A stretch of DNA of 29,257 nucleotides from a virus. This document shows, one piece after another, positions 2,687 through 19,934 of this stretch. The position numbers were made by a program, and so were the translations under genes. The stretch spans positions 1 to 29,257 of IMG/VR virus record IMGVR_UViG_3300046009_003418. One strand, written 5' to 3'. A model generated the notes under the pieces. It saw only the letters and a program-made list of their open reading frames with translations. It made no database searches and was not told the origin of the DNA. Every line of letters begins with the position of its first letter. Position 1 is the first letter of the stretch.

Positions 2687-2787
2687 TGCGTAGCGTTGTC
2701 GGGTGGGTATTTATCGTGCTGATGATCATGTGGATGCTGCTTATGCTTATGAGCGAGCCGATGTTTAATGGGGTCTGGTTTCTTTGA
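2686..2787 (+). CDS. tiny single-pass membrane protein, 33 aa
   Basis: ATG 2686 overlaps the annealase stop (TAATG) and the TGA at 2785-2787 overlaps the TTG start of the polymerase, so the frame is tightly nested in the operon. The product is almost all hydrophobic: VVGWVFIVLMIMWMLLMLM spans residues 4-22, preceded by Arg and followed by the short tail SEPMFNGVWFL. This is a single transmembrane helix with a likely cytoplasmic N-terminus. The role is unknown; it could be a small membrane anchor or a lysis/superinfection factor. The exact stop/start overlaps at both ends are the main reason to believe it is real. Confidence 0.5.
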   Translation: MRSVVGWVFIVLMIMWMLLMLMSEPMFNGVWFL

Positions 2788-3722
2788 TTCTTGCTATTGA
2801 CACTGAGACAACTGGTGTTGGCTGGTACGATCAAGCCTTCATGATCAGTGCTGCGACTGGGGATTTCACTCGCGTGTATGATCAACGCTCAGTGTCTAGT
2901 GCTGCGTGGGAAGATGTAATTGAGGAGACGGTTATCAGCCTGTGCGAGGCTAAGAGTATCATTATGCATAACGCGAAGTTTGATATTCAAAAGTTGTGCA
3001 GACTAGGCGTCCCGCTCAGTATCTTCATGGATACTTCGCGTTGGGAGGACACGCAAGCGATTGCGCATCTCATTGATGAGCAACAGTCTACTGGGCTGAA
3101 GTATCTTGCGCGTACTGTGCTTGGCGAGGAGACTGACGAGGACGAGGTACTTAAAGTGTGGCGGCGTAAGAATAAGATTAAGAAGGATGAGGGGTATTAT
3201 CCTATTCCCTATGATATTCTCGCGCCGTACGCTGCTAAGGATGCGGAGTTTACGCTGCGACTCTACCAAGAATTGTGGCCGCGTTTCCCAGAGAGCCTCT
3301 ACGAGTTGTATAATACTGAGAAGAAACTGACACTCGCATTGCTCAGCATTGAAACGTGTGGTTTTAAGATTGATAATGAGTATGTTAGTGCTAAGCGTAA
3401 GGAGTATGGTGATCGGATTTACAAACTTAAGTCTAGTATTGGGAAGATTGCTGGAAAAGACTTCAACCCCCAGTCCCACCAGCAGGTCCTTGCCGCCCTC
3501 AAACAGCGAGGAATCAGAGTTGATTCGACTTCAAAGGAGACTCTTGCGGGGCTGGATGATGAACTAGCCCAACTGATTCTAGAGTTGCGTGAGGCTAATA
3601 AAATCAAAGCAACGTACTTTGATGCTCTTGCTGAGGAGGCTAAGCAGGGCTTGTTGCATCCCAACTTTCGTCAGCACGGCACGAGGACTGGTCGTATGAG
3701 TAGTGGGAGCGCAGAAGCATGA
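2784..3722 (+). CDS. DNA polymerase A, N-terminal half (3'-5' exonuclease and thumb)
   Basis: A 312-aa protein starting at TTG 2784. It has the proofreading exonuclease of family-A polymerases: ExoI AIDTETT (residues 4-10), ExoII HNAKFD (62-67) and ExoIII YAAKDA (149-154). The start of the polymerase domain follows (EKKLTLALLSIETCGFKID, then DFNPQSHQQVL). It ends with the conserved GTRTGRMSSG (299-308), then SAEA and a TGA whose bases overlap the next ATG. The family sequence should continue through NxQNIP into the palm and fingers; that remainder is encoded separately at 4829-5569. No 5'-3' exonuclease domain is present, as is usual in phage enzymes. It presumably associates with the C-terminal half to form the replicative polymerase. 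Confidence 0.85.
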   Translation: MILAIDTETTGVGWYDQAFMISAATGDFTRVYDQRSVSSAAWEDVIEETVISLCEAKSIIMHNAKFDIQKLCRLGVPLSIFMDTSRWEDTQAIAHLIDEQQSTGLKYLARTVLGEETDEDEVLKVWRRKNKIKKDEGYYPIPYDILAPYAAKDAEFTLRLYQELWPRFPESLYELYNTEKKLTLALLSIETCGFKIDNEYVSAKRKEYGDRIYKLKSSIGKIAGKDFNPQSHQQVLAALKQRGIRVDSTSKETLAGLDDELAQLILELREANKIKATYFDALAEEAKQGLLHPNFRQHGTRTGRMSSGSAEA

Positions 3723-3919
3723 GCGACAAAACTCAACACCAAGAAGCGCAAGAACTGATTGATTGGACGAGAACCAATGGTGATCCCGGATGGGTAACCA
3801 ACAGATCGGTTATCGGACTGTTCAGTGTGATTTGTGAACTACAAGATCGTCTTGATGCTATTGAAAGACGCTTTTCCGCAGCGACTAATGCACTAGAAGA
3901 AGGACAAACAAATGATTAG
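3719..3919 (+). CDS. hypothetical protein in the polymerase cassette, 66 aa
   Basis: It begins at ATG 3719, overlapping the polymerase stop by 4 bases (ATGA), and ends 8 bases inside the glycosyltransferase gene. The sequence is polar and helical, with a heptad-like segment (VICELQDRLDAIERRFSAAT) suggesting a short coiled coil. No family is recognised. Codon use is richer in A and C than the T-ending codons of the surrounding early genes. Confidence 0.55.
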   Translation: MSDKTQHQEAQELIDWTRTNGDPGWVTNRSVIGLFSVICELQDRLDAIERRFSAATNALEEGQTND

Positions 3920-4682
3920 TATTATCACACCTACCTACGAAACTAGTCCTGATACTCTTGCGCGAACATGGAATAGTCTAAAGAATCAGACGTACTGGCC
4001 GTGGGAATGGATCGTCTGGGATGACTCGTATACCACAAGTACGTGGTCACAAGTCTACGGTTTCTGCTCTGATGAGCGATACAATATCAGTCTGTTTCGT
4101 AGTCACGTACATTCTGGTATCATCGGACAGATCAAGCGTTGGGGTTTCATGGTAGCCAGTGGCGACATTCTCGTGGAGTTGGATCATGATGACGAGTTGA
4201 CTCCAAACGCACTAGAAGAGATTAACAAGGCGTTTAAGGATGCTGAGGTTGGTTTTGTTTATTCTGATTGTAGTGAGATTCATCCTAACGGAGAGTCGCA
4301 TCGTTACCCTGAGGGCTGGGCGTTTGGTTATGGCAAAGAGTATTATGATGAGGAGCATGGCTTGTGGGTCATGCAAGCACCAGAGATTAATGCTACGACT
4401 CTAAGTCATATCGTTAGCGTACCCAATCATGTACGCTCGTGGCGCGCTAGCGTGTATCACGAACTCGACGGCCATAATCCCACGCTGCGAGTTGCTGATG
4501 ATTACGAGTTGATCGTACGTACCGCTCTGCATACCAAGACAAAGCATATCAACAAGTTGTTGTATAAGCAGTATATTAATCCTAATTCTGCGCAGCGCGT
4601 ACATAATGCTGAGATTCAAACACAAGTTAAGCGTATTAGCGAGCAGTATCATGATAAGATCAGAGCCGTGTTTGATGTTTGA
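3912..4682 (+). CDS. GT2-family (GT-A fold) glycosyltransferase
   Basis: A 256-aa protein opening with the family-2 nucleotide-sugar binding signature ISIITPTYETSPDTLARTW (residues 2-20) and LKNQTYWPWEWIVWDDS (23-39). The metal-binding acidic motif follows in GDILVELDHDDELTPNAL (84-101), and a probable acceptor/catalytic acidic segment (VADDYELIVRTA) lies near residue 200. No transmembrane helix or signal peptide is seen, so it should act in the cytoplasm, transferring a sugar from a nucleotide donor. The acceptor is unknown: modified DNA bases, a virion protein or host glycan precursors are all possible. It starts after AAGGACAAACA and overlaps both cassette neighbours by 8 bases. Its position inside a polymerase gene is highly unusual. 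Confidence 0.85.
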   Translation: MISIITPTYETSPDTLARTWNSLKNQTYWPWEWIVWDDSYTTSTWSQVYGFCSDERYNISLFRSHVHSGIIGQIKRWGFMVASGDILVELDHDDELTPNALEEINKAFKDAEVGFVYSDCSEIHPNGESHRYPEGWAFGYGKEYYDEEHGLWVMQAPEINATTLSHIVSVPNHVRSWRASVYHELDGHNPTLRVADDYELIVRTALHTKTKHINKLLYKQYINPNSAQRVHNAEIQTQVKRISEQYHDKIRAVFDV

Positions 4683-4851
4683 TGAGGACGAGTGGGACTT
4701 GTACCTAGTTAACATGCAGGATTTGACAACTGGCGAAGAAGTTGGTAAAATGTGGCCCGTATACGCAACCAACTATGATCATGCTATTAGTATTTACCAA
4801 CTGATGCTGATGATTTGCGAGGATAATAGTGAACGTTCAGAATATTCCTAG
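4675..4851 (+). CDS. hypothetical protein in the polymerase cassette, 58 aa
   Basis: ATG 4675 overlaps the glycosyltransferase stop by 8 bases (ATGTTTGA). The sequence MFDEDEWDLYLVNMQDLTTG followed by KMWPVYATNYDHAISIYQLM looks like a small alpha/beta fold; no family is recognised. Its final residues (about SERSEYS) are read from the beginning of the polymerase C-terminal gene in another frame, giving a 23-base overlap. This suggests the original end of the gene was lost when the cassette joined the polymerase sequence, or that the overlap is used for translational coupling. Confidence 0.5.
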   Translation: MFDEDEWDLYLVNMQDLTTGEEVGKMWPVYATNYDHAISIYQLMLMICEDNSERSEYS

Positions 4852-5569
4852 AACACAAAAGGATGTAAAGCGTGCCTTCGTACCGAAACTTGACGCATTC
4901 TTATTCTTCGACTACAAAGCGATTGAGGTCCGTCTCCTCGCATACTACCTTGCGGCAGCAATTGGTGATGATTCGCTGGCTACCGAAATTAATAATGGTG
5001 CGGATCCCCATGCTAATACCGCGCGGGGACTCTACAACACTAACGAGGTATCAGACGAGCAGAGGCAAGTTGGAAAGACCCTAAACTTTTCTATCATTTA
5101 TGGTGGTGGTACTCCCACTATCATGCGACAATTGGGCGTGTCATTCACTGAGGCTCGACGCTTGTTGAAGGCTTATCATGATACTCGTCCCGGCATTAAG
5201 CGACTCAACCAGAACATTGGCGAGACACTACTAGCAAGGGGTTATATTCAAAGTCTCTATGGTCGGCACCTGCACGTTCAAGAAGAGCACAAGGCACTGA
5301 ACGCTCTTATTCAAGGCTCTGCCGCAGACCTCATGCGGGATAGTGTAGTGCGCGTATGGGAACGCCTCCTTAACGGAGACTTCATGTCGCACATGGTGAA
5401 CATTGTACACGACGAGATTATCATTGATGCGGATAAGGAGGAGATAAACACTCTAGTTACTCTCATTCCATCGCTAATGGGGAATAAAACCGTAGAGAAA
5501 TTCGTTAATATAGATACTGATTGTGAAATTTCCTACACGAATTGGGCGGAGAAAAGTACGTATGAGTGA
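4829..5569 (+). CDS. DNA polymerase A, C-terminal half (palm and fingers)
   Basis: A 246-aa protein that begins in the middle of a conserved polymerase segment (NVQNIPR at residues 2-8). It has motif A DYKAIEVR (28-35, catalytic Asp28), motif B RQVGKTLNFSIIYGGG (79-94, the O-helix Arg, Lys, Phe and Tyr-Gly) and motif C VHDE (193-196, catalytic Asp195), plus NALIQGSAADLMR. All polymerase catalytic residues are therefore present. It is read from GTG 4829 with GAGG 6 bases upstream; an in-frame TGA at 4811-4813 blocks any extension into the cassette. Phe81-type dNTP selection cannot be judged by eye. It should pair with the product of 2784-3722. Codons end in C more often than in the flanking genes. 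Confidence 0.88.
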   Translation: MNVQNIPRTQKDVKRAFVPKLDAFLFFDYKAIEVRLLAYYLAAAIGDDSLATEINNGADPHANTARGLYNTNEVSDEQRQVGKTLNFSIIYGGGTPTIMRQLGVSFTEARRLLKAYHDTRPGIKRLNQNIGETLLARGYIQSLYGRHLHVQEEHKALNALIQGSAADLMRDSVVRVWERLLNGDFMSHMVNIVHDEIIIDADKEEINTLVTLIPSLMGNKTVEKFVNIDTDCEISYTNWAEKSTYE

Positions 5570-5925: not shown

Positions 5926-6658
5926 GTTGACTAGTCCCTATACTAAGGGCAAGGATGTGAAGACTGCTCAGCGCGCGCTGGCTAGTGTTGGTGCGTGGGT
6001 TGGTAAGATTGATGGTGTGTTCGGCCCTACCACTGCTGCTGCTGCAAAGCAGGCTAAGTGGATGATTGGGTATCGCCAGCAGAATTGTACGCAGACGTAC
6101 GAGCCTCTGCTGCATTCGTTCCTTACGGGTAAGAAGAAGCCTAGCGCGTTGATGCGGCGGCGTGCTGAGCGGCGTAAGAAGTCGTTTGGGCCTATGCGCG
6201 AGCGCGCTCTGGCTGAGAGTGTCAAGTGGATTGGCACGAAGGAGAATCCCCCTAATTCTAATAAGGTGATGTTCTCTGATTGGTATGGTCTTCGCGGGCC
6301 TTGGTGCGCTATGTTTGTGACGTGGTGTTATACGAAGGCTGGTAGTAAGGCGTTTGACCCTAAGAAGTCTAGGTGGGCGTATTGTCCTTTTATGGTGAAT
6401 GATGCTCGCGCTCAGCGCAACGGGCTTATCGTTGTTCCCGCTGATCGTGTCCAGCCGGGAGACATTGCCATGTTTGATTGGCAGGGCGATGGCACTAGTG
6501 ATCATGTTGGTATTGTAGAGACTAAGCCTAATAGTAAGGGCGCGTTCAAGTGTATTGAGGGGAATACCTCTACGTCCAGTGATAGTGACGGCGGGCAGGT
6601 AATGCGCCGTGATCGTAATAAGAATCAGGTTCAGGTTTTCATCCGCGTCGTGGAGTAG
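5912..6658 (+). CDS. endolysin: peptidoglycan-binding domain plus CHAP domain
   Basis: 248 aa, two-domain. Residues 10-54 match a PG_binding_1 repeat (GKDVKTAQRALASVG, GKIDGVFGPTTAAAAK). After a basic linker, residues about 95-248 form a CHAP cysteine amidase/peptidase: GPWCAMFVTWCY places the nucleophile at Cys132, DHVGIVE gives the catalytic His198, and IEGNT around 216-219 supplies the polar partner. Related enzymes cleave peptidoglycan amide or peptide bonds. No signal peptide or SAR helix is seen, so it should need a holin to reach the wall. Unusually, it lies among + strand replication genes, whereas the holin candidates are in the opposite late unit. A Gram-positive host is suggested. 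Confidence 0.87.
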   Translation: MRVLKLTSPYTKGKDVKTAQRALASVGAWVGKIDGVFGPTTAAAAKQAKWMIGYRQQNCTQTYEPLLHSFLTGKKKPSALMRRRAERRKKSFGPMRERALAESVKWIGTKENPPNSNKVMFSDWYGLRGPWCAMFVTWCYTKAGSKAFDPKKSRWAYCPFMVNDARAQRNGLIVVPADRVQPGDIAMFDWQGDGTSDHVGIVETKPNSKGAFKCIEGNTSTSSDSDGGQVMRRDRNKNQVQVFIRVVE

Positions 6659-10348: not shown

Positions 10349-12265
10349 ATGAATCTACCAAGTGATTATCAGACGTTCATCGCAACGTCACGGTATGCTC
10401 GCTGGCTAGACGATGAGAACAGGCGAGAGTATTGGCCTGAGACTGTCTCGCGTTACATCGAGTTTATGGATAAGAATCTTCGCGAGAAGAATAATTATAA
10501 GATGCCAGTAGAGTTGAAGGCAGAGTTGCTTGACGCTATTATCAATCTAGAGGTCATGCCTAGTATGCGTGCCCTTATGACTGCTGGTCCCGCACTGGAT
10601 AGGGAGAATGTTGCTGGTTATAACTGCTCGTACACTCCAGTGAATCATCCTCGCTGCTTTGATGAGATCCTCTACATCCTTATGAATGGGGTTGGTGTGG
10701 GCTTCTCTGTGGAGCGCGATGAGATTAACCAGTTGCCTATCGTTAACGAGCATTTTGAGGATTCTACTACGGTAATTACTGTGGCTGATTCTAAGGCTGG
10801 TTGGGCTAGGGCACTGCGAGAGTTGATCGCTATGCTGTATGCTGGTCAGATTCCGAAGTGGGATACTAGTCTTGTGCGTCCCGCAGGAAGCCGCCTGAAG
10901 ACGTTTGGTGGGCGCGCTAGTGGTCCCGCTCCACTGGAGGACTTGTTTAAGTTTACTGTCAACTTGTTTGCAAATGCGGCTGGGCGTAGGCTTAACGCAT
11001 TGGAGTGTCATGATTTGGTATGTAAAATCGCGGAAGTGGTCGTTGTTGGTGGGGTTCGGCGTTCCGCGCTTATCAGCCTCAGTAATCTTAGCGATGGGCG
11101 AATGCGGAATGCTAAGAGTGGCGAATGGTGGACAGATAATCCGCAAAGAGCACTTGCGAACAATAGTGTCGCGTACACCGAAACGCCCGGTATGGATGCG
11201 TTTATGGAAGAGTGGGTAGCGCTCTACCAGTCCAAGAGTGGAGAGCGTGGTATCTTCAATAGGCAAGCCGCTAAGGCTCAGGCTGCTAAGAACGGAAGGA
11301 GGGAGTATGAGCATCAGTTTGGTACAAACCCGTGCAGTGAGATTATTCTACGGCCGCATCAGTTTTGCAATCTCACTGAAGTCGTTGTTAGAGCCGGGGA
11401 TGGGCCTGACGATCTTAAGAGAAAGATCAGGCTCGCTACGATTCTTGGGACGTTCCAAGCCACGCTTACAGAGTTTAAGTATCTCCGTAAGATTTGGAAG
11501 CAGAACACTGAGGAAGAGCGTCTCCTTGGTGTTTCTCTCACGGGGATCTTCGACAACAAGATGATGATTAATAAGGGAACGTATAATCTCCCGTCTAATC
11601 TTAGGGAGTTTCGTCAGGAGGCGGTGCTGACTAATGCGAAGTATGCTAAGCAGATTGGTATTCCTGTGTCTACTGCCATTACTTGTGTTAAGCCTAGTGG
11701 TACTGTCTCACAGTTGGTGGATTCCGCTTCCGGCATTCATCCTCGTCACTCTGAGTATTATATTAGGCGTGTACGTGGTGACGTCAAGGATCCTTTGACG
11801 CAGTTTCTTATTGATGCTGGTGTGCCTGCTGAGCCTGACGTGATGAAGCCAGAGACTACTATGGTATTCTCGTTCCCACAGAAGGCTCCTACAATTACAA
11901 AGGGCACTCTTACGGCTATTGATCACTTGGAGTTGTGGCTTGCGTATCAGGAGAACTGGTGCGAGCACAAGCCTAGTATTACTGTGAGTGTTGCTGAGGA
12001 TGAGTGGATGCGTGTGGGAGCGTGGGTGTATGATCATTTTGATGATGTGAGTGGTATCTCATTTTTGCCTAAGAGTGATCATACGTATCGTCAAGCGCCG
12101 TACGAGGCTATTACTAAGGAGGAGTATGACGAGTTGGTTAAGCAAAGCCCGAAGAGTATTGATTGGGCTGCTTTGGCAGAGTATGAACTAGAAGATAATA
12201 CTGATTCTAGTCAGACTCTTGCTTGTAGTGCTGATGGATGTGAGGTTGTAGATATTAAAGCCTAA
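10349..12265 (+). CDS. nrdJ: class II (B12-dependent) ribonucleotide reductase
   Basis: 638 aa, starting after AAAGGAG. It resembles the monomeric adenosylcobalamin-dependent ribonucleoside-triphosphate reductases. AGYNCSY gives Cys93, the first reducing Cys. GTNPCSEI gives Cys329, the thiyl-radical Cys, and HQFCNL gives Cys340, the second reducing Cys. KPSGTVSQLVDSASGIHPRH is the phosphate-binding segment. The C-terminal CSADGC (626-631) is the swinging Cys pair re-reduced by thioredoxin-type donors. No radical-generating small subunit is needed or seen. It makes deoxynucleotides for phage replication without oxygen dependence, using host cobalamin. It is shorter than the ~739-residue Lactobacillus enzyme. 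Last gene of the + strand unit, 26 bases before the terminator stem. Confidence 0.93.
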   Translation: MNLPSDYQTFIATSRYARWLDDENRREYWPETVSRYIEFMDKNLREKNNYKMPVELKAELLDAIINLEVMPSMRALMTAGPALDRENVAGYNCSYTPVNHPRCFDEILYILMNGVGVGFSVERDEINQLPIVNEHFEDSTTVITVADSKAGWARALRELIAMLYAGQIPKWDTSLVRPAGSRLKTFGGRASGPAPLEDLFKFTVNLFANAAGRRLNALECHDLVCKIAEVVVVGGVRRSALISLSNLSDGRMRNAKSGEWWTDNPQRALANNSVAYTETPGMDAFMEEWVALYQSKSGERGIFNRQAAKAQAAKNGRREYEHQFGTNPCSEIILRPHQFCNLTEVVVRAGDGPDDLKRKIRLATILGTFQATLTEFKYLRKIWKQNTEEERLLGVSLTGIFDNKMMINKGTYNLPSNLREFRQEAVLTNAKYAKQIGIPVSTAITCVKPSGTVSQLVDSASGIHPRHSEYYIRRVRGDVKDPLTQFLIDAGVPAEPDVMKPETTMVFSFPQKAPTITKGTLTAIDHLELWLAYQENWCEHKPSITVSVAEDEWMRVGAWVYDHFDDVSGISFLPKSDHTYRQAPYEAITKEEYDELVKQSPKSIDWAALAEYELEDNTDSSQTLACSADGCEVVDIKA

Positions 12266-13460: not shown

Positions 13461-16400
13461 CTAATCAAGCCTACCAGAAAGAATAGCCTCAACACTAGCA
13501 GGATTAAAACCCTTAGGAATCCTAGGCTTCTCATTCTCCAACTGTTGAAGCACACGAGCAACCAACGCAGGATCAGCATCCTGAAACGCAGGCAACCAAA
13601 CATTAAACACATAATCACGCTTATACTGCCAATTACGAAGAGCATTCGCAGTCTTTAACTGACTACGACGATCATTCAACTTAAATTCCTCATACAACAC
13701 GCCACGCCTATCATACTCCCTAGAAATAGCATCCCCCAACTGCTCCTTATCAAGACTATACACAGGAACAAGCGTCGAATTTACAAACCCCGCCATAGAA
13801 CGAGTAGGAAACTTCGTAGAAAACTTAGGCTTAGGAACACGCAACTTAGAATTAGGATCAAACGGATCCCTAAGAATATCCTCAGGATTACTCACACCAC
13901 GCAACTCATTCAACCCAACACTCGTCTTAAACAAACCAAGACCAATACGAAGCGGAGGAAGCGTCTCAAAAGAATCAAACGCCGCACTCAACAAACCCTG
14001 CTCAGGATCAACAGGCGCACCCGTCAACAAACTACGCCCAAGAGACTGTTGAATAGCCAACTCAATAAACGGATTCGTAATCTCAAACACACCCGAATCA
14101 GTACGGAAATTACCGCCACGAGTCAAACCAGCCACCATCTCAATAATATTACCAGTCGTACCAAACGGATTAATCAGCCCGAATCCCAAACGATTATCCT
14201 TCTCAGGATCCAACCCAAGAACCTCAGCAACAACCTCCGGCATAGGGATAGACTCCAACAACCAATCAGGCAAACCGCCCTGCTCAGCAATAGTCTCATA
14301 CCCATAATTACCAATATTATACAACGTATTAGCAGTAAGCGGACGCTCCTGCACCATACGCTTAGTAAACAAAGCCGAATGCCTAGTCCAAGCATAAAAC
14401 GGCACAGCATAATCACGAATAAGCCGCTCAGTATAAGAAAAATCACGATAATTACCACTAACCATATCAGCCGTATGACGCAACTCGCGCAAAAACAACG
14501 GATCAAAATCAAGACTACGAGGATCACTCAACAAATCCATAGCAGCATGAAACTTCGTAACCGTAGTATAACCCATCTCAGGAATACCCTCCATAGCCCG
14601 CTTAGCAACCTCAGGAGAATTCATAAAATCCTTAAACCCCGGATAATTCATAGCCGCCTCGCGAATAATAGCCACCCGGAAATTCTTCTCAATAGCCATA
14701 CCCACCGTATAACCAAACGTAGCCACCTTACGAGCCTTACTATCCATCTTACCCAGCGTTTTAGCAGCATCCTCACCATAAATCTGATCCTCAAACTCGC
14801 GAATAAAACGATTAAGAATAATATCATAATCCATACCATGATTCTCATAAGGATTAACCTCAATACCCTTACGCCAACTACTACTAATCGTAGCACGCGC
14901 ACGCTTATTCAACGAATACTGCAAGAACCTAGCCATAATATGACCAGCCTGCATAGGATTCATAATCATCATCATAACCATCGTACCAAAAAACTGTTGC
15001 GTAACAAACCGAGGATTCAACGACAACGCAAACAACTTAAACGTGCTCGTAGCACCTCGCATAACCTTCGTAGCAAAAATATTAGAACGATTATACGAAT
15101 CCCGCAAATTATCAGCCAAACCACGAGGAATAACCATAATCAGATTATCAGCATTATTATAATTAAGATCAGCCAAATCAGCAAACATAGCCTTCTGCCA
15201 CTCACTAGCATCCACAAGACGCTGCTCACGAGCCTCCTTTAACGCATACGACGTAGAATCAAGGAAACTCATACGAGTAACATACTTCGTCTGACCATTA
15301 ACAACATACTCGATAATAGCCTCATCACCCTCAAGAGGAGCACGCACACGTTCACGATCAATATACCTCTGCGCAGCCTCACGAGTATCATGCACAGCCA
15401 TAGTCCTAAGCGCCTCATAGCCACCCTTAAAACGCTCAGCCTGCTCACGAGTAATAAGAATAGCATTCTCATGAATCGTATCCTCAATATCACTCTTAAA
15501 CCTACGATACGCAGCATTACGCAAAGCAGCATAATGAATATCCAAATTAAAAGACATTAAACCACTAGACGCAATAACATTACGATTGATAGCCTGAGCA
15601 AACGATTCGCGACTACCCATCATATTCTTAATATGCACCTTATCCGTAAAATCACGCGCATTAGGGAACAACTTCATAGCAAAATTAAGCGAAGCCCTAT
15701 TTAACTGCTCACTCAACTCGGACATATCCGAATCAATACCACGCTTACCAGCACTCTTAGGCGAAGTAGCATACGTATCAATAAACTCGCCATCACCAGT
15801 ACGCAAATCATCCGTACCACGCTTACTCTTAACAAAAGCCTCAGCAGGAAGCGTCAACGGCCTATCATCAATAAGACTACCATCACGGTACGTCCGCTCA
15901 GTATCCTTCTCAAACTGGCCCCTAACACGCAACCGCCGACCACGAACAAACTTACGACCAGCAACATCAAAGACACTATCCACCACAAACAATGGCGTAT
16001 TATCAACCGTCCTAAAACTCGTATCAGTACCCAGATAAGCAACACTCTCACGAACCTCATCAATAACACTCTTATACAAAGCATCATCAGCGCCCTCAAT
16101 ATCCTGCATAACAGAACGCAAATTACGCCCCTCACCATCAGGAAGATCCGAAACCTTACCAGTCTCAAGAAAATGATAACCACCATTCAACACGCCAATA
16201 CGATCCGTAACCTCAGCCGTTTCAAGTTCCTCAAGCATATCCTCATCCAAAAGACGAGCAGCATTCAAAAACAATTGGTTCCTAAGCGTCAACTCGCGAG
16301 CACTAAGCGCATCCATTTCAACACCAGCACGATGCCGCATAGCCTCATTCTTAGCGCGAATACGCTCAGCAGTAGTACGCATATTCTTACCACGCGCATC

Positions 16401-19400
16401 AACAGGCGCACCCTCATCGCCAAGCGTATGAATCTTAGCATAAGCAGCCTCATACTCCCTAAGAAACTCTGGATCTTGATAAAGATCAGCCTCTTTCTGC
16501 GTTAACACAAGAACATCATCCGTCTCGTCAACACCATCCTTACGCATCCGCTCCAACTTACCCAACGAAATAGCAAGAAGATTACCCGGAGAAAACATAC
16601 GACCACTAGCATAATTCATAATAGCCAACTGCTCAGCATCCGTAAACTCTTGCGCATTAGCAAGAGCCTGATGAGCCGCCTGCTCACGCAACTCGCGCAA
16701 CAACATATCCGCATCACCAAAAGGATTACTCTTCAAAGCATTAGCATACCGCAAATTAAAACCAATAAGAGGCATATTAACCAGCACACTATCCGGCTTA
16801 CGACGAGCAACGCCCTTCTGAATAGTAAACATAAGATCCTGCATACCACGCGCAATAGGACTACCCGCCCTACGACGAAGAGGCCCACCACTAGTTTCAA
16901 TAGCCTCAATCTCCTCCATGCTAATACCACGCCGACCAGCCTCGCGCGCAATAACCTCATTAAGCGCCTTCGCATCCTCAGGCGTACCATCAGGATACAC
17001 ATCACGATAACTAAACGCCGTATAACGAGGACTAAACCACGCAGCAACACGATCCATACGACCCGGAGTATACGAACTATTAAGCCCACCATAACCCTTA
17101 GGCGTCAATTGCACAAGACGATTATACGCGCCCTGATCACCCGTTAACGCGGCACGCTGAGCAGCAGCAAACTTTCTAGCGCTAACAAATCGCACAGGCT
17201 TACCACTATTCAACTCTTCCAACAAGCGCACAGCCTCAGCGCCACGAGCAGTAGGATCAAACTTTTCAGGCTCCCAAAAAACACCACGCTCAGTAGAAGG
17301 AATAGAAAACTCTGGCTCCGTCTTTTTAAGCGCCGCCTGCCAATCAGTCTTATTAATCTTACTCGTAACAGCCGCAATACGCGCAATCTGCGCGCCACGC
17401 GCACCAGCACCAATAACAGGAACCAACCCAAGAATATCCATAGCAGGCGCCCAAGGATCCATCAACGCAGACTCAACAAAATTAGCATCCGGGTCGCCCC
17501 AAATCTGCCCATAACGCTGAGCATAATCCTCAAGAATAGCCCGACCAGTACCCTTAGGATCAGTCACCGCCATATACATACCCATAGGCATACCAAGCGC
17601 AGCCCTAATAGGCGACTTAATCAAATTATCCCTAAACGCAGCACTAAATACCGTATCAGTCTTAGTAGCCGACAAAGGCCCCTGAGCATCAGACAACATC
17701 GTAGCAACACTACCAACCGTAAACTCTCGACCCAACTCTTCAGGCGTCATCTTAAACGCCTTAGCAAGCCCCTCACTAAACGTCACATCATCAGCATTAG
17801 CGAAAACACCAGCAGCAGCAAGACGATTAATATACCCGCCCGGACCAATCCCCGGCCCAAACGTAGTCTGCCCAATTACATTAGAAACAGTACGACCAAA
17901 CCACGAACGCTGATCGCCCTCACGCTCAAACATCTCCTGCGCAACCTCGCCCGGAGTAATCTCCTTCTGCCAATCCTCAACCATACTAAGAATAAACGGA
18001 TCAACAGGAGCACCAGCATTATAAGCCTCCAAAGCAGAAACATACAACACGCGCTTATCCTCAGCAGACAACTCGCGCCGCTTACCCGTAGCAACATCCT
18101 CATAAAAAATCTGATTCAACACATCACGAGGAACAACACCACCAACACCAGAATCAAGCACAGCAGCCAAACGACGCGGCCACTCCTCAACAGGAAACAC
18201 ATTAACATACTGCCCCGTAGCCTCATCAAGACGACGGAAATTAGCCTCAGCCGTACCCTGAGCCTGCTTTAACTCTGCTTCGCGAGCCTCCTCGCGCTCC
18301 TTTTGATTCTGCTCAACAAGCGCAGCAATATTAGCCTCGTCGCGCCGAGCAACAGCCAAATCAGCAAACTCGCCATTCTTAATACCAAGAATACGCTCAG
18401 ACAACCAACGATTTTGAGCCTGCACATACGTACCCCCATCAAAAGAATACATATACTTCTTAAGATTATTAACATCTTTCTGATCAAAATTACCAGAATA
18501 AATACGATCAAGAAGAGCGCCACCACCAGACTCGCGAATCTTAGTCTCAATCTTACTAGTAAGAGTCTCATACGTATTTTGATCCTGTAAATAATCAGCC
18601 GCCATAGCACTATAATCGGGCGTTTCATCATCATCGCGACGAGGAATATCAACCATATCAAACGCAGCAGAACTAGGATCACGATTAACACTAACCGCGC
18701 CCGTACTACTACTAACCTTAAAACCAGCCGATTGAAGGAAAAAATCACTTAGAACAAGACGGCCTTGACTCTTACGCTCAACACGACCATCAGAATTAAT
18801 ACTAAAGTTATCAGAAAGAAACGTTTCCAAAGCAAGTCTATTAACCGTAGCAATAGGAATTTTATGCTGAGAATCCTTAGTTTTGCCATACGTAATAATA
18901 CCAGAAGCAATCATATCAGCAATATCTTGCTGAGACAAACCAAACTTCTTAGAATTATCAATAAACATAGCCGACATATTAAAACGATTATCATCAGCAT
19001 ACTTATCAATAGTACCAAGACGCTCTTCGCTACGACTCCAACTACCATTACTCAAATAATTACGCCACTGGGCGATTTCACCACGAGCATTAATTTCAGC
19101 AAAAGCAGACTTCTTAGCCTCGCGCTGTTGCTCAGTCCCTTCAGGCATCTGCTCAATAGCAATAATCGCATCAATAGCCGCAGACTGAGCAGGAAAACGC
19201 TCCTTATACGACGCGCCAACACCCTTCCAATACTCCATTTGATTACGCTGTTTATCGCGCCGTCTTTGACTAGACGCCTGAGCGGCATCAGCAGGATTAC
19301 GAGTATTAAGCCCCATAACATTACTGCCATACAACCCGCTTCCAGCAAAATCTGGCGCAGGCAAAATACCAGTCGCTTCAGTTCCAACAGCACCCAAATT

Positions 19401-19934
19401 ACCACTAGGATTAAGGCCCTTTTGGCCTCGTATATTAGCCATACGAGCCATACTATTTAAAGCCTTAATCCTATCAATAGGCGCCATCAGCGACGGATCA
19501 CCAGCAGCATTAGCAGCATTAATAGCATCCTGACGCTTCTTAGCATCCTCACTAAACGCCCTACTAATAGCAGGAACGGGCGATACGGTGCCCGGAGGCG
19601 GTGTACCCAAGGGATTAGCGTAATACTCCCTTAATTCGCGCTGACGACGAAACTCTTCTTGGCGTTGCAAATACGTAGCATACGCTGCGCGACGCGCTGG
19701 TTCTCCAAACTGCGCACGCCTACCAAGATCCGACATAGTGCTCGTATACGCTGGTCGCGTACCACGAATACCACTCGTAAGAGGCCCAGCAGGATTAGAA
19801 ACAAGCGCACCACTAGGGAGAACACTAGGCATCCTAAACCCGCCAACCTGTTGCTGAGGAACAGTCCCCGGCTTCTTAGGCGGCTTAGCCCCAGACGAGC
19901 CACCCGGCCCCAAATAAGGATTAGAAACAGCCAA
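13461..19934 (-). CDS. giant internal virion / DNA-ejection protein candidate, 2157 aa
   Basis: The largest gene here, from TTG 19934 with AAAGGAG 6 bases upstream. The N-terminal ~130 residues are Gly/Pro/Ser-rich and disordered-looking. The middle is mostly helical, with charged coiled-coil stretches (QNQKEREEAREAELKQAQG). Near residues 1634-1661 lies a hydrophobic segment (QQFFGTMVMMMIMNPM). Around residue 1840, RDYAVPFYAWTRHSALFTKR resembles a large-polyvalent-protein domain (LPD38-like) found in phage structural and ejected proteins. Size, position after the nozzle and fibres, and the membrane-active-looking segment suggest a T7 gp16-like ejectosome component, though much larger than gp16 (1318 aa). 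No lytic transglycosylase motif was found by eye. Confidence 0.65.
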   Translation of the reverse strand: MAVSNPYLGPGGSSGAKPPKKPGTVPQQQVGGFRMPSVLPSGALVSNPAGPLTSGIRGTRPAYTSTMSDLGRRAQFGEPARRAAYATYLQRQEEFRRQRELREYYANPLGTPPPGTVSPVPAISRAFSEDAKKRQDAINAANAAGDPSLMAPIDRIKALNSMARMANIRGQKGLNPSGNLGAVGTEATGILPAPDFAGSGLYGSNVMGLNTRNPADAAQASSQRRRDKQRNQMEYWKGVGASYKERFPAQSAAIDAIIAIEQMPEGTEQQREAKKSAFAEINARGEIAQWRNYLSNGSWSRSEERLGTIDKYADDNRFNMSAMFIDNSKKFGLSQQDIADMIASGIITYGKTKDSQHKIPIATVNRLALETFLSDNFSINSDGRVERKSQGRLVLSDFFLQSAGFKVSSSTGAVSVNRDPSSAAFDMVDIPRRDDDETPDYSAMAADYLQDQNTYETLTSKIETKIRESGGGALLDRIYSGNFDQKDVNNLKKYMYSFDGGTYVQAQNRWLSERILGIKNGEFADLAVARRDEANIAALVEQNQKEREEAREAELKQAQGTAEANFRRLDEATGQYVNVFPVEEWPRRLAAVLDSGVGGVVPRDVLNQIFYEDVATGKRRELSAEDKRVLYVSALEAYNAGAPVDPFILSMVEDWQKEITPGEVAQEMFEREGDQRSWFGRTVSNVIGQTTFGPGIGPGGYINRLAAAGVFANADDVTFSEGLAKAFKMTPEELGREFTVGSVATMLSDAQGPLSATKTDTVFSAAFRDNLIKSPIRAALGMPMGMYMAVTDPKGTGRAILEDYAQRYGQIWGDPDANFVESALMDPWAPAMDILGLVPVIGAGARGAQIARIAAVTSKINKTDWQAALKKTEPEFSIPSTERGVFWEPEKFDPTARGAEAVRLLEELNSGKPVRFVSARKFAAAQRAALTGDQGAYNRLVQLTPKGYGGLNSSYTPGRMDRVAAWFSPRYTAFSYRDVYPDGTPEDAKALNEVIAREAGRRGISMEEIEAIETSGGPLRRRAGSPIARGMQDLMFTIQKGVARRKPDSVLVNMPLIGFNLRYANALKSNPFGDADMLLRELREQAAHQALANAQEFTDAEQLAIMNYASGRMFSPGNLLAISLGKLERMRKDGVDETDDVLVLTQKEADLYQDPEFLREYEAAYAKIHTLGDEGAPVDARGKNMRTTAERIRAKNEAMRHRAGVEMDALSARELTLRNQLFLNAARLLDEDMLEELETAEVTDRIGVLNGGYHFLETGKVSDLPDGEGRNLRSVMQDIEGADDALYKSVIDEVRESVAYLGTDTSFRTVDNTPLFVVDSVFDVAGRKFVRGRRLRVRGQFEKDTERTYRDGSLIDDRPLTLPAEAFVKSKRGTDDLRTGDGEFIDTYATSPKSAGKRGIDSDMSELSEQLNRASLNFAMKLFPNARDFTDKVHIKNMMGSRESFAQAINRNVIASSGLMSFNLDIHYAALRNAAYRRFKSDIEDTIHENAILITREQAERFKGGYEALRTMAVHDTREAAQRYIDRERVRAPLEGDEAIIEYVVNGQTKYVTRMSFLDSTSYALKEAREQRLVDASEWQKAMFADLADLNYNNADNLIMVIPRGLADNLRDSYNRSNIFATKVMRGATSTFKLFALSLNPRFVTQQFFGTMVMMMIMNPMQAGHIMARFLQYSLNKRARATISSSWRKGIEVNPYENHGMDYDIILNRFIREFEDQIYGEDAAKTLGKMDSKARKVATFGYTVGMAIEKNFRVAIIREAAMNYPGFKDFMNSPEVAKRAMEGIPEMGYTTVTKFHAAMDLLSDPRSLDFDPLFLRELRHTADMVSGNYRDFSYTERLIRDYAVPFYAWTRHSALFTKRMVQERPLTANTLYNIGNYGYETIAEQGGLPDWLLESIPMPEVVAEVLGLDPEKDNRLGFGLINPFGTTGNIIEMVAGLTRGGNFRTDSGVFEITNPFIELAIQQSLGRSLLTGAPVDPEQGLLSAAFDSFETLPPLRIGLGLFKTSVGLNELRGVSNPEDILRDPFDPNSKLRVPKPKFSTKFPTRSMAGFVNSTLVPVYSLDKEQLGDAISREYDRRGVLYEEFKLNDRRSQLKTANALRNWQYKRDYVFNVWLPAFQDADPALVARVLQQLENEKPRIPKGFNPASVEAILSGRLD

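Follow-up and report, generated by a model that had tools for sequence, protein, structure and literature searches.

The question raised by this locus is whether a family-A DNA polymerase encoded as two separate genes, with other open reading frames (ORFs) lying between them, is a working two-chain enzyme, a decayed gene, or a single gene interrupted by a sequence that is removed from its message. The window analysed is the whole 29,257-nt stretch of an uncultured virus (IMG/VR record IMGVR_UViG_3300046009_003418), and coordinates refer to it unless another contig is named. The gene for the N-terminal chain, polN (2784–3722, plus strand), has a TTG start and a TGA stop; its product contains the 3′-5′ exonuclease, the thumb, the motif TGRMSSG and the tail SAEA, and ends in ...HGTRTGRMSSGSAEA (more fully, ...HPNFRQHGTRTGRMSSGSAEA) immediately before the stop. 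The gene for the C-terminal chain, polC (4829–5569, plus strand), starts at a GTG and specifies the palm, the fingers and motifs A, B and C, its product beginning MNVQNIPR (longer start sequence, MNVQNIPRTQKDVKRAF). In Pfam, polN matched PF01612 (3.6e-18) and positions 2–123 of PF00476 (4.2e-16), while polC matched positions 127–381 of the latter (1.1e-48), such that only ∼3 columns of the DNA_pol_A profile are missing between them. Judged by homology and motifs, the window enzyme is a family-A polymerase, though in two chains.

The insert between the two halves is not a single gene. It is made up of three overlapping ORFs on the plus strand: cargo ORF 1 (3719–3919), which specifies 66 amino acids of unknown function with no match in Pfam or PHROG; cargo ORF 2 (3912–4682), which encodes a GT2 glycosyltransferase of 256 amino acids (PF00535, 4.1e-19); and cargo ORF 3 (4675–4851), whose acidic 58-residue product, also of unknown function, has relatives of 31–41% identity in the same slot. 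Each ORF from polN to polC overlaps its neighbours. The polN stop and the cargo ORF 1 start share the sequence ATGA (3719–3722, plus strand), which is the cargo insertion point; in cargo-free relatives the same ATGA provides the polC start directly. At the other end, cargo ORF 3 and polC overlap by 23 nt, the GTG of polC lying inside cargo ORF 3. The proposals that polC has a start of its own and that an in-frame stop bars read-through both held: a Shine-Dalgarno-like GAGG (4819–4822, plus strand) lies upstream of the GTG at 4829, a TGA occurs in the polC frame at 4811–4813 (six codons 5′ of the GTG), and the polN and polC reading frames differ.

The claim that the exonuclease and polymerase motifs are intact was borne out by alignments comprising 16–17 divergent split relatives. 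The exonuclease signatures DxE, HNxxFD and YAxxD (the DEDDy set) were invariant in 17 divergent split polN products, and motifs A (DYxxIExR), B (RxxxKxxxxxxxYG) and C (HDE) of polC formed invariant columns across the divergent split relatives (alignment A5). One deep relative, L144, shows a one-base frameshift in polC at motif A (5975–6075 of its contig; GACTATTGACGAT), which is either a sequencing error or decay.

A scan of IMG/VR with polC rendered 33 loci, of which L001 is 100% and the other 32 are 62–80% identical to the window; wherever the upstream half was present, the polN end and the first residue of polC fell at identical points. A scan with a polN alignment returned relatives at 36–44% identity, split at the same point and carrying different cargo, and with further scans the set grew to 56 contigs in addition to the window. 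The split proposed at TGRxSS / NxQNIP holds in its coordinates and recurs at the same point in all 56 of these viral contigs, the most distant of them about 37% identical. Two frames with stops between them were found in 57 of 57 cases (the 56 contigs and the window, with both halves seen). The 84 contiguous polymerases returned by the same scans were more distant and unbroken (e.g. TGRLSSSNP-NAQNVP). In a 60-row tree, the split enzymes formed one clade (SH-aLRT 100) requiring a single state change, with the contiguous relatives all outside it, a topology that points to a single origin of the break at the base of this deep phage clade. An unrelated contiguous PolA, at ∼4001 of L104, has what resembles the end of an intein (GVYTHN|SQIEMR) at motif A itself.

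All 28 records tested (of up to 51 kb) contained a single N-type and a single C-type PF00476 piece and no others; the second intact polymerase considered by the sequence-only reading, which would make polC a pseudogene, was not among them. Neither DnaE-type (PF07733) nor family-B (PF00136) domains turned up in the 13 crown-group records in which they were sought, the 15 deep-branching records having been searched for PF00476 only. The split enzyme is the only polymerase detected among the families tested, in contigs that are uncultured and may be incomplete. Median dN/dS values were about 0.17 for polN and 0.13 for polC, and replacement change was low right up to the ends of both. Purifying selection, a deeply conserved break and the lack of any other detected polymerase support the view that this is a working two-chain polymerase and not a gene in decay.

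When each chain was modelled alone with AF2, pLDDT values of 86 (polN) and 84 (polC) were obtained. The polN model aligned with residues 350–686 of Klenow (1kfs; VIA-align Z 17.6) and the polC model with residues 577–876 of Bst polymerase (1lv5; Z 24.0); on E. coli Pol I (8oo6) they mapped to residues 350–688 and 629–928, respectively. As modelled, polN and polC correspond to successive stretches of one polymerase structure. The invariant ends were the parts with pLDDT below 50 in these solo models (polN residues 298–301 and 306–312, polC residues 1–8), a pattern that would follow if neither end took up its fold without the partner chain; such mutual dependence is probable. In Klenow, the primer-template is contacted near the active site by the motif-1 arginine as well as by the NxQN residues; the active site would therefore comprise both chains, being formed by the conserved ends of polN and polC. 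A structural hit to DpoZ raised a possible link with Z genomes, which was dropped when no PurZ-like adenylosuccinate synthetase was found in 13 records.

The search for relatives with and without the cassette, suggested by the sequence-only reading, found both kinds, and all are split. In five cargo-free lineages, polN and polC are separated only by a stop/start overlap of 4 nt (ATGA in L013, L023 and L025; GTGA in L026) or, in the distant branch L269, of 1 nt (TGATG); the other split members carry 164–2198 nt of exchangeable genes in the gap. The cassette thus does lie between the halves as had been described, but it did not cause the interruption: since cargo-free relatives are split too, the cargo is secondary and not the source of the split in the window phage.

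Several comparisons indicate that the cargo has been exchanged. Relative to the cargo-free L025, L014 has a glycosyltransferase gene inserted exactly at the ATGA, with GCATGA flanking it on both sides. The contigs L002 and L004 are 94.65% identical over both flanks (3.4 and 5.7 kb), yet L002 has an additional ORF and glycosyltransferase gene, plus an HNH endonuclease gene directly before polC, all exactly at the junction, which shows that the L002 insertions are recent. In L072/L073, cargo ORF 1 is 98% and the glycosyltransferase 90% identical to that of the window, while polC is merely 63% identical. The glycosyltransferase label required at least six changes on both polymerase trees, and the gene was missing from all eight records with little or no cargo that were searched. 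The glycosyltransferase trees conflicted with those of the polymerase, although AU tests of single glycosyltransferase sister pairs on the polymerase trees were indecisive (P = 0.05–0.38); the case for cargo transfer therefore rests on L002/L004, on L014/L025, and on the 98% and 90% versus 63% identities of L072. The polymerase halves have themselves been reassorted between phages, with conflicting polN and polC trees for L031, L046 and L072: L031 and L046 were sisters in polN (support 97), a grouping rejected by polC (AU P = 1.6 × 10–5).

Deep relatives carry other genes in the gap, including those for an aspartate/ornithine carbamoyltransferase-like protein (L149), SLOG-type proteins (L145, L146 and L148) and a calcineurin-like phosphoesterase (L150). 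The sequence-only reading had described the cargo as non-endonuclease. This stands for the window, which has no homing endonuclease at the break, but not for the site as a whole; besides the HNH gene of L002, endonuclease-like ORFs adjoin polC in L144, L150 and L163. Those of L144 and L150 are classed by PHROG as 'HNH endonuclease' and, on inspection by eye, show a LAGLIDADG-like AWAAGFFDGEGS motif; that of L163 was judged by eye only.

With respect to expression, 55 polC starts were examined: 53 are overlapped by the stop of an upstream ORF, the overlap being exactly 4 nt in 40 of them, and 48 of the 55 follow a Shine-Dalgarno-like sequence. Coupled termination and re-initiation would be an economical reading of these overlaps, and would explain the tolerance of new ORFs that keep the overlap. 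In six records, polC appears to start at the conserved NxQNIPR with a rare codon (ATT, ATC, ATA or CTG; L149 at 5403, L150 at 5693, L270 and L279 at 3501, L162 at 1615 and L147 at 6713). This start comes immediately after a stop codon in L149 and L150, leaving no ordinary start there. Such codons might be a means of translational control.

Taken together, the only detected polymerase of these phages is very probably an obligate two-chain family-A enzyme made by coupled re-initiation, with the junction of its genes serving as a gene-insertion site. A single polycistronic message would carry both chains: polN, with the exonuclease, the thumb and the motif-1 arginine, and polC, with the palm, the fingers and motifs A, B and C. 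Ribosomes terminating on one ORF would re-initiate at the overlapping start of the next, and the two chains would associate non-covalently into an active enzyme with a canonical Pol I-like fold. The founding break would have been one event in the variable loop that joins TGRxSS to NxQNIP, probably the insertion of a homing endonuclease or a one-base frameshift that created the stop/start overlap. The endonuclease genes found at the site in several lineages fit an origin from a homing element; alternatively, an endonuclease may have invaded a gene that was already split, as noted for phage 25 (PMC2988022). With a stop/start overlap already in place at the junction, further ORFs can enter without harm to either chain, and glycosyltransferase, SLOG, ATCase-like and homing-type endonuclease genes and small ORFs are repeatedly gained, lost and swapped. 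A bolder and rather doubtful extension is that the split has been retained as a useful trait, a permanent cargo port in the replication operon through which a whole phage lineage would acquire and trade genes (glycosyltransferase, carbamoyltransferase-like, SLOG, phosphoesterase and homing-type nuclease genes), with chains reassorted and translation kept coupled.

Other explanations would restore a single polymerase, or deny that there is one. Self-splicing of a group I or group II intron could restore a single polymerase mRNA; introns are known in the family-A polymerase genes of phages SPO1 and Bastille (cited in PMC10580990), and homing-type endonucleases are present at this site in relatives. 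However, no Rfam match was found between positions 3400 and 5200 of the window, even at E ≤ 5, nor at the gathering threshold in seven related loci, and the window insert is covered by ORFs from end to end. Moreover, exact removal of the cargo yields the natural cargo-free allele, and since this still consists of two overlapping frames, splicing cannot produce one chain; the intron reading is highly improbable. Recoding, via a ribosomal frameshift or hop that would join the halves into one polypeptide at least in part of the clade, is suggested by the 4-nt frame overlap of the cargo-free members, in which one frameshift would fuse the frames. It too is very unlikely: a slippery heptamer is not evident, and in most members 164–2198 nt of complete other ORFs separate the halves, far beyond known hops, such as that of T4 gene 60, which skips 50 nt. 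A split intein was also considered and discarded, as polN extends only ∼4 residues past TGRMSSG, polC starts at NVQ, and no intein halves occur at the chain ends.

The chains might instead act separately, polN as a stand-alone proofreading exonuclease and polC as a minimal, thumb-less polymerase. The existence of two genes, and the good folding of the exonuclease domain alone in the AF2 model, would agree with this, but polN retains the thumb and the invariant HPxFRQHGTxTGRMSSG end, a polymerase-domain part useless to a lone exonuclease, and both invariant ends appear unfolded in the solo models; separate roles are very unlikely. Split polymerase annotations in isolates may also be errors, and that of Salmonella phage INF11, in which several genes including the primase are broken, was set aside as a likely sequencing artefact. 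For the present locus, the chance of a pseudogene or of a sequencing or assembly artefact is vanishingly small; selection is strong and purifying, no second polymerase was found among the families tested, and the recurrence of the break in 56 independent contigs rules out chance or assembly error.

In GTDB genomes, polC had no match and polN one weak, partial match (32% identity) in a metagenome-assembled genome, and the nearest isolate polymerases are about 31% identical. The ribonucleotide reductase of the window (10349–12265; PHROG 367) is far closer to isolates than the polymerase is, being 66% identical to those of Roseobacter phage CRP-403 and Streptomyces phages. Elsewhere in the window, an ORF of 2157 amino acids (13461–19934, minus strand) had no PHROG match. 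The related contig L021 contains an Rfam tmRNA match of just 83 nt (1150–1232) that covers the model in full; it may be a minimal or tRNA-like element. A broad lineage of uncultured viruses appears to have long relied on a non-covalent two-chain family-A polymerase. Its naturally evolved split point could be useful for split or controllable Pol I enzymes, with natural chain-swap experiments at hand; it offers a clear test of how an essential gene is broken up by homing elements and then becomes a stable site of insertion, and it puts right the intron interpretation that loci of this kind readily suggest.

The domains and motifs of the window enzyme are those of its nearest structural hits, DpoZ (7pbk), the phage G20c polymerase (7r0k) and the Fromanvirus Pol I; these share 25–32% identity with it and, in contrast, are single chains. 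The sequence-only reading had considered a family-A counterpart of the split T4-type polymerases, with non-endonuclease cargo, unusual. The split is real but has a precedent, since the OM43 phages MEP401 and MEP402 (Zobellviridae) have a split family-A polymerase (gp13, gp14 and gp15; PMC10580990, OP830906). In MEP401, a gene for the exonuclease and N-terminal DNA_pol_A part is followed by a small unknown ORF and a C-terminal DNA_pol_A gene; most genomes of the group have the split, for which the authors considered an intron (PMC10580990). As in the window, coding sequence separates the two genes, but the MEP401 break lies ∼20 residues further downstream, where TGRLSSSSPNLQNFDGEIKTLFLSRYGE ends and motif A is about to begin (between TGRLSSSSPNLQNF...RYGE and motif A), rather than at TGRMSSG / NxQNIP, and there is no glycosyltransferase or other large cargo. 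MEP401 fell outside the split clade (SH-aLRT 100), a separate-origin result weakened by its long branch. In Aeromonas phages 25 and 44RR, the replicative polymerase is also encoded in two genes, 43A and 43B, the gap holding an endonuclease gene in phage 25 and an untranslated spacer in 44RR; the phage 25 proteins co-purify and are active, and its seg endonuclease may have entered a gene that had been split beforehand (reviewed in PMC2988022). Gene 43, however, belongs to family B, with another fold and another break, and lacks the stop/start overlaps to varied cargo across a deep clade. The Aeh1 ribonucleotide reductase (nrdA-a/nrdA-b, with mobE) is, like the window polymerase, an essential phage enzyme split near its active site, with full activity kept (PMC2988022), but it is a different enzyme and the splitting endonuclease is still present. 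As in these genes in pieces, two adjacent genes of the window together cover the whole enzyme. A break beside motif 1 was not described in the open-access PMC literature searched, and earlier reports elsewhere are possible; compared with the known splits, the present one differs in its new break point, its separate origin, the depth of its clade, the independence of the split from its cargo, and the richness of that exchangeable cargo.
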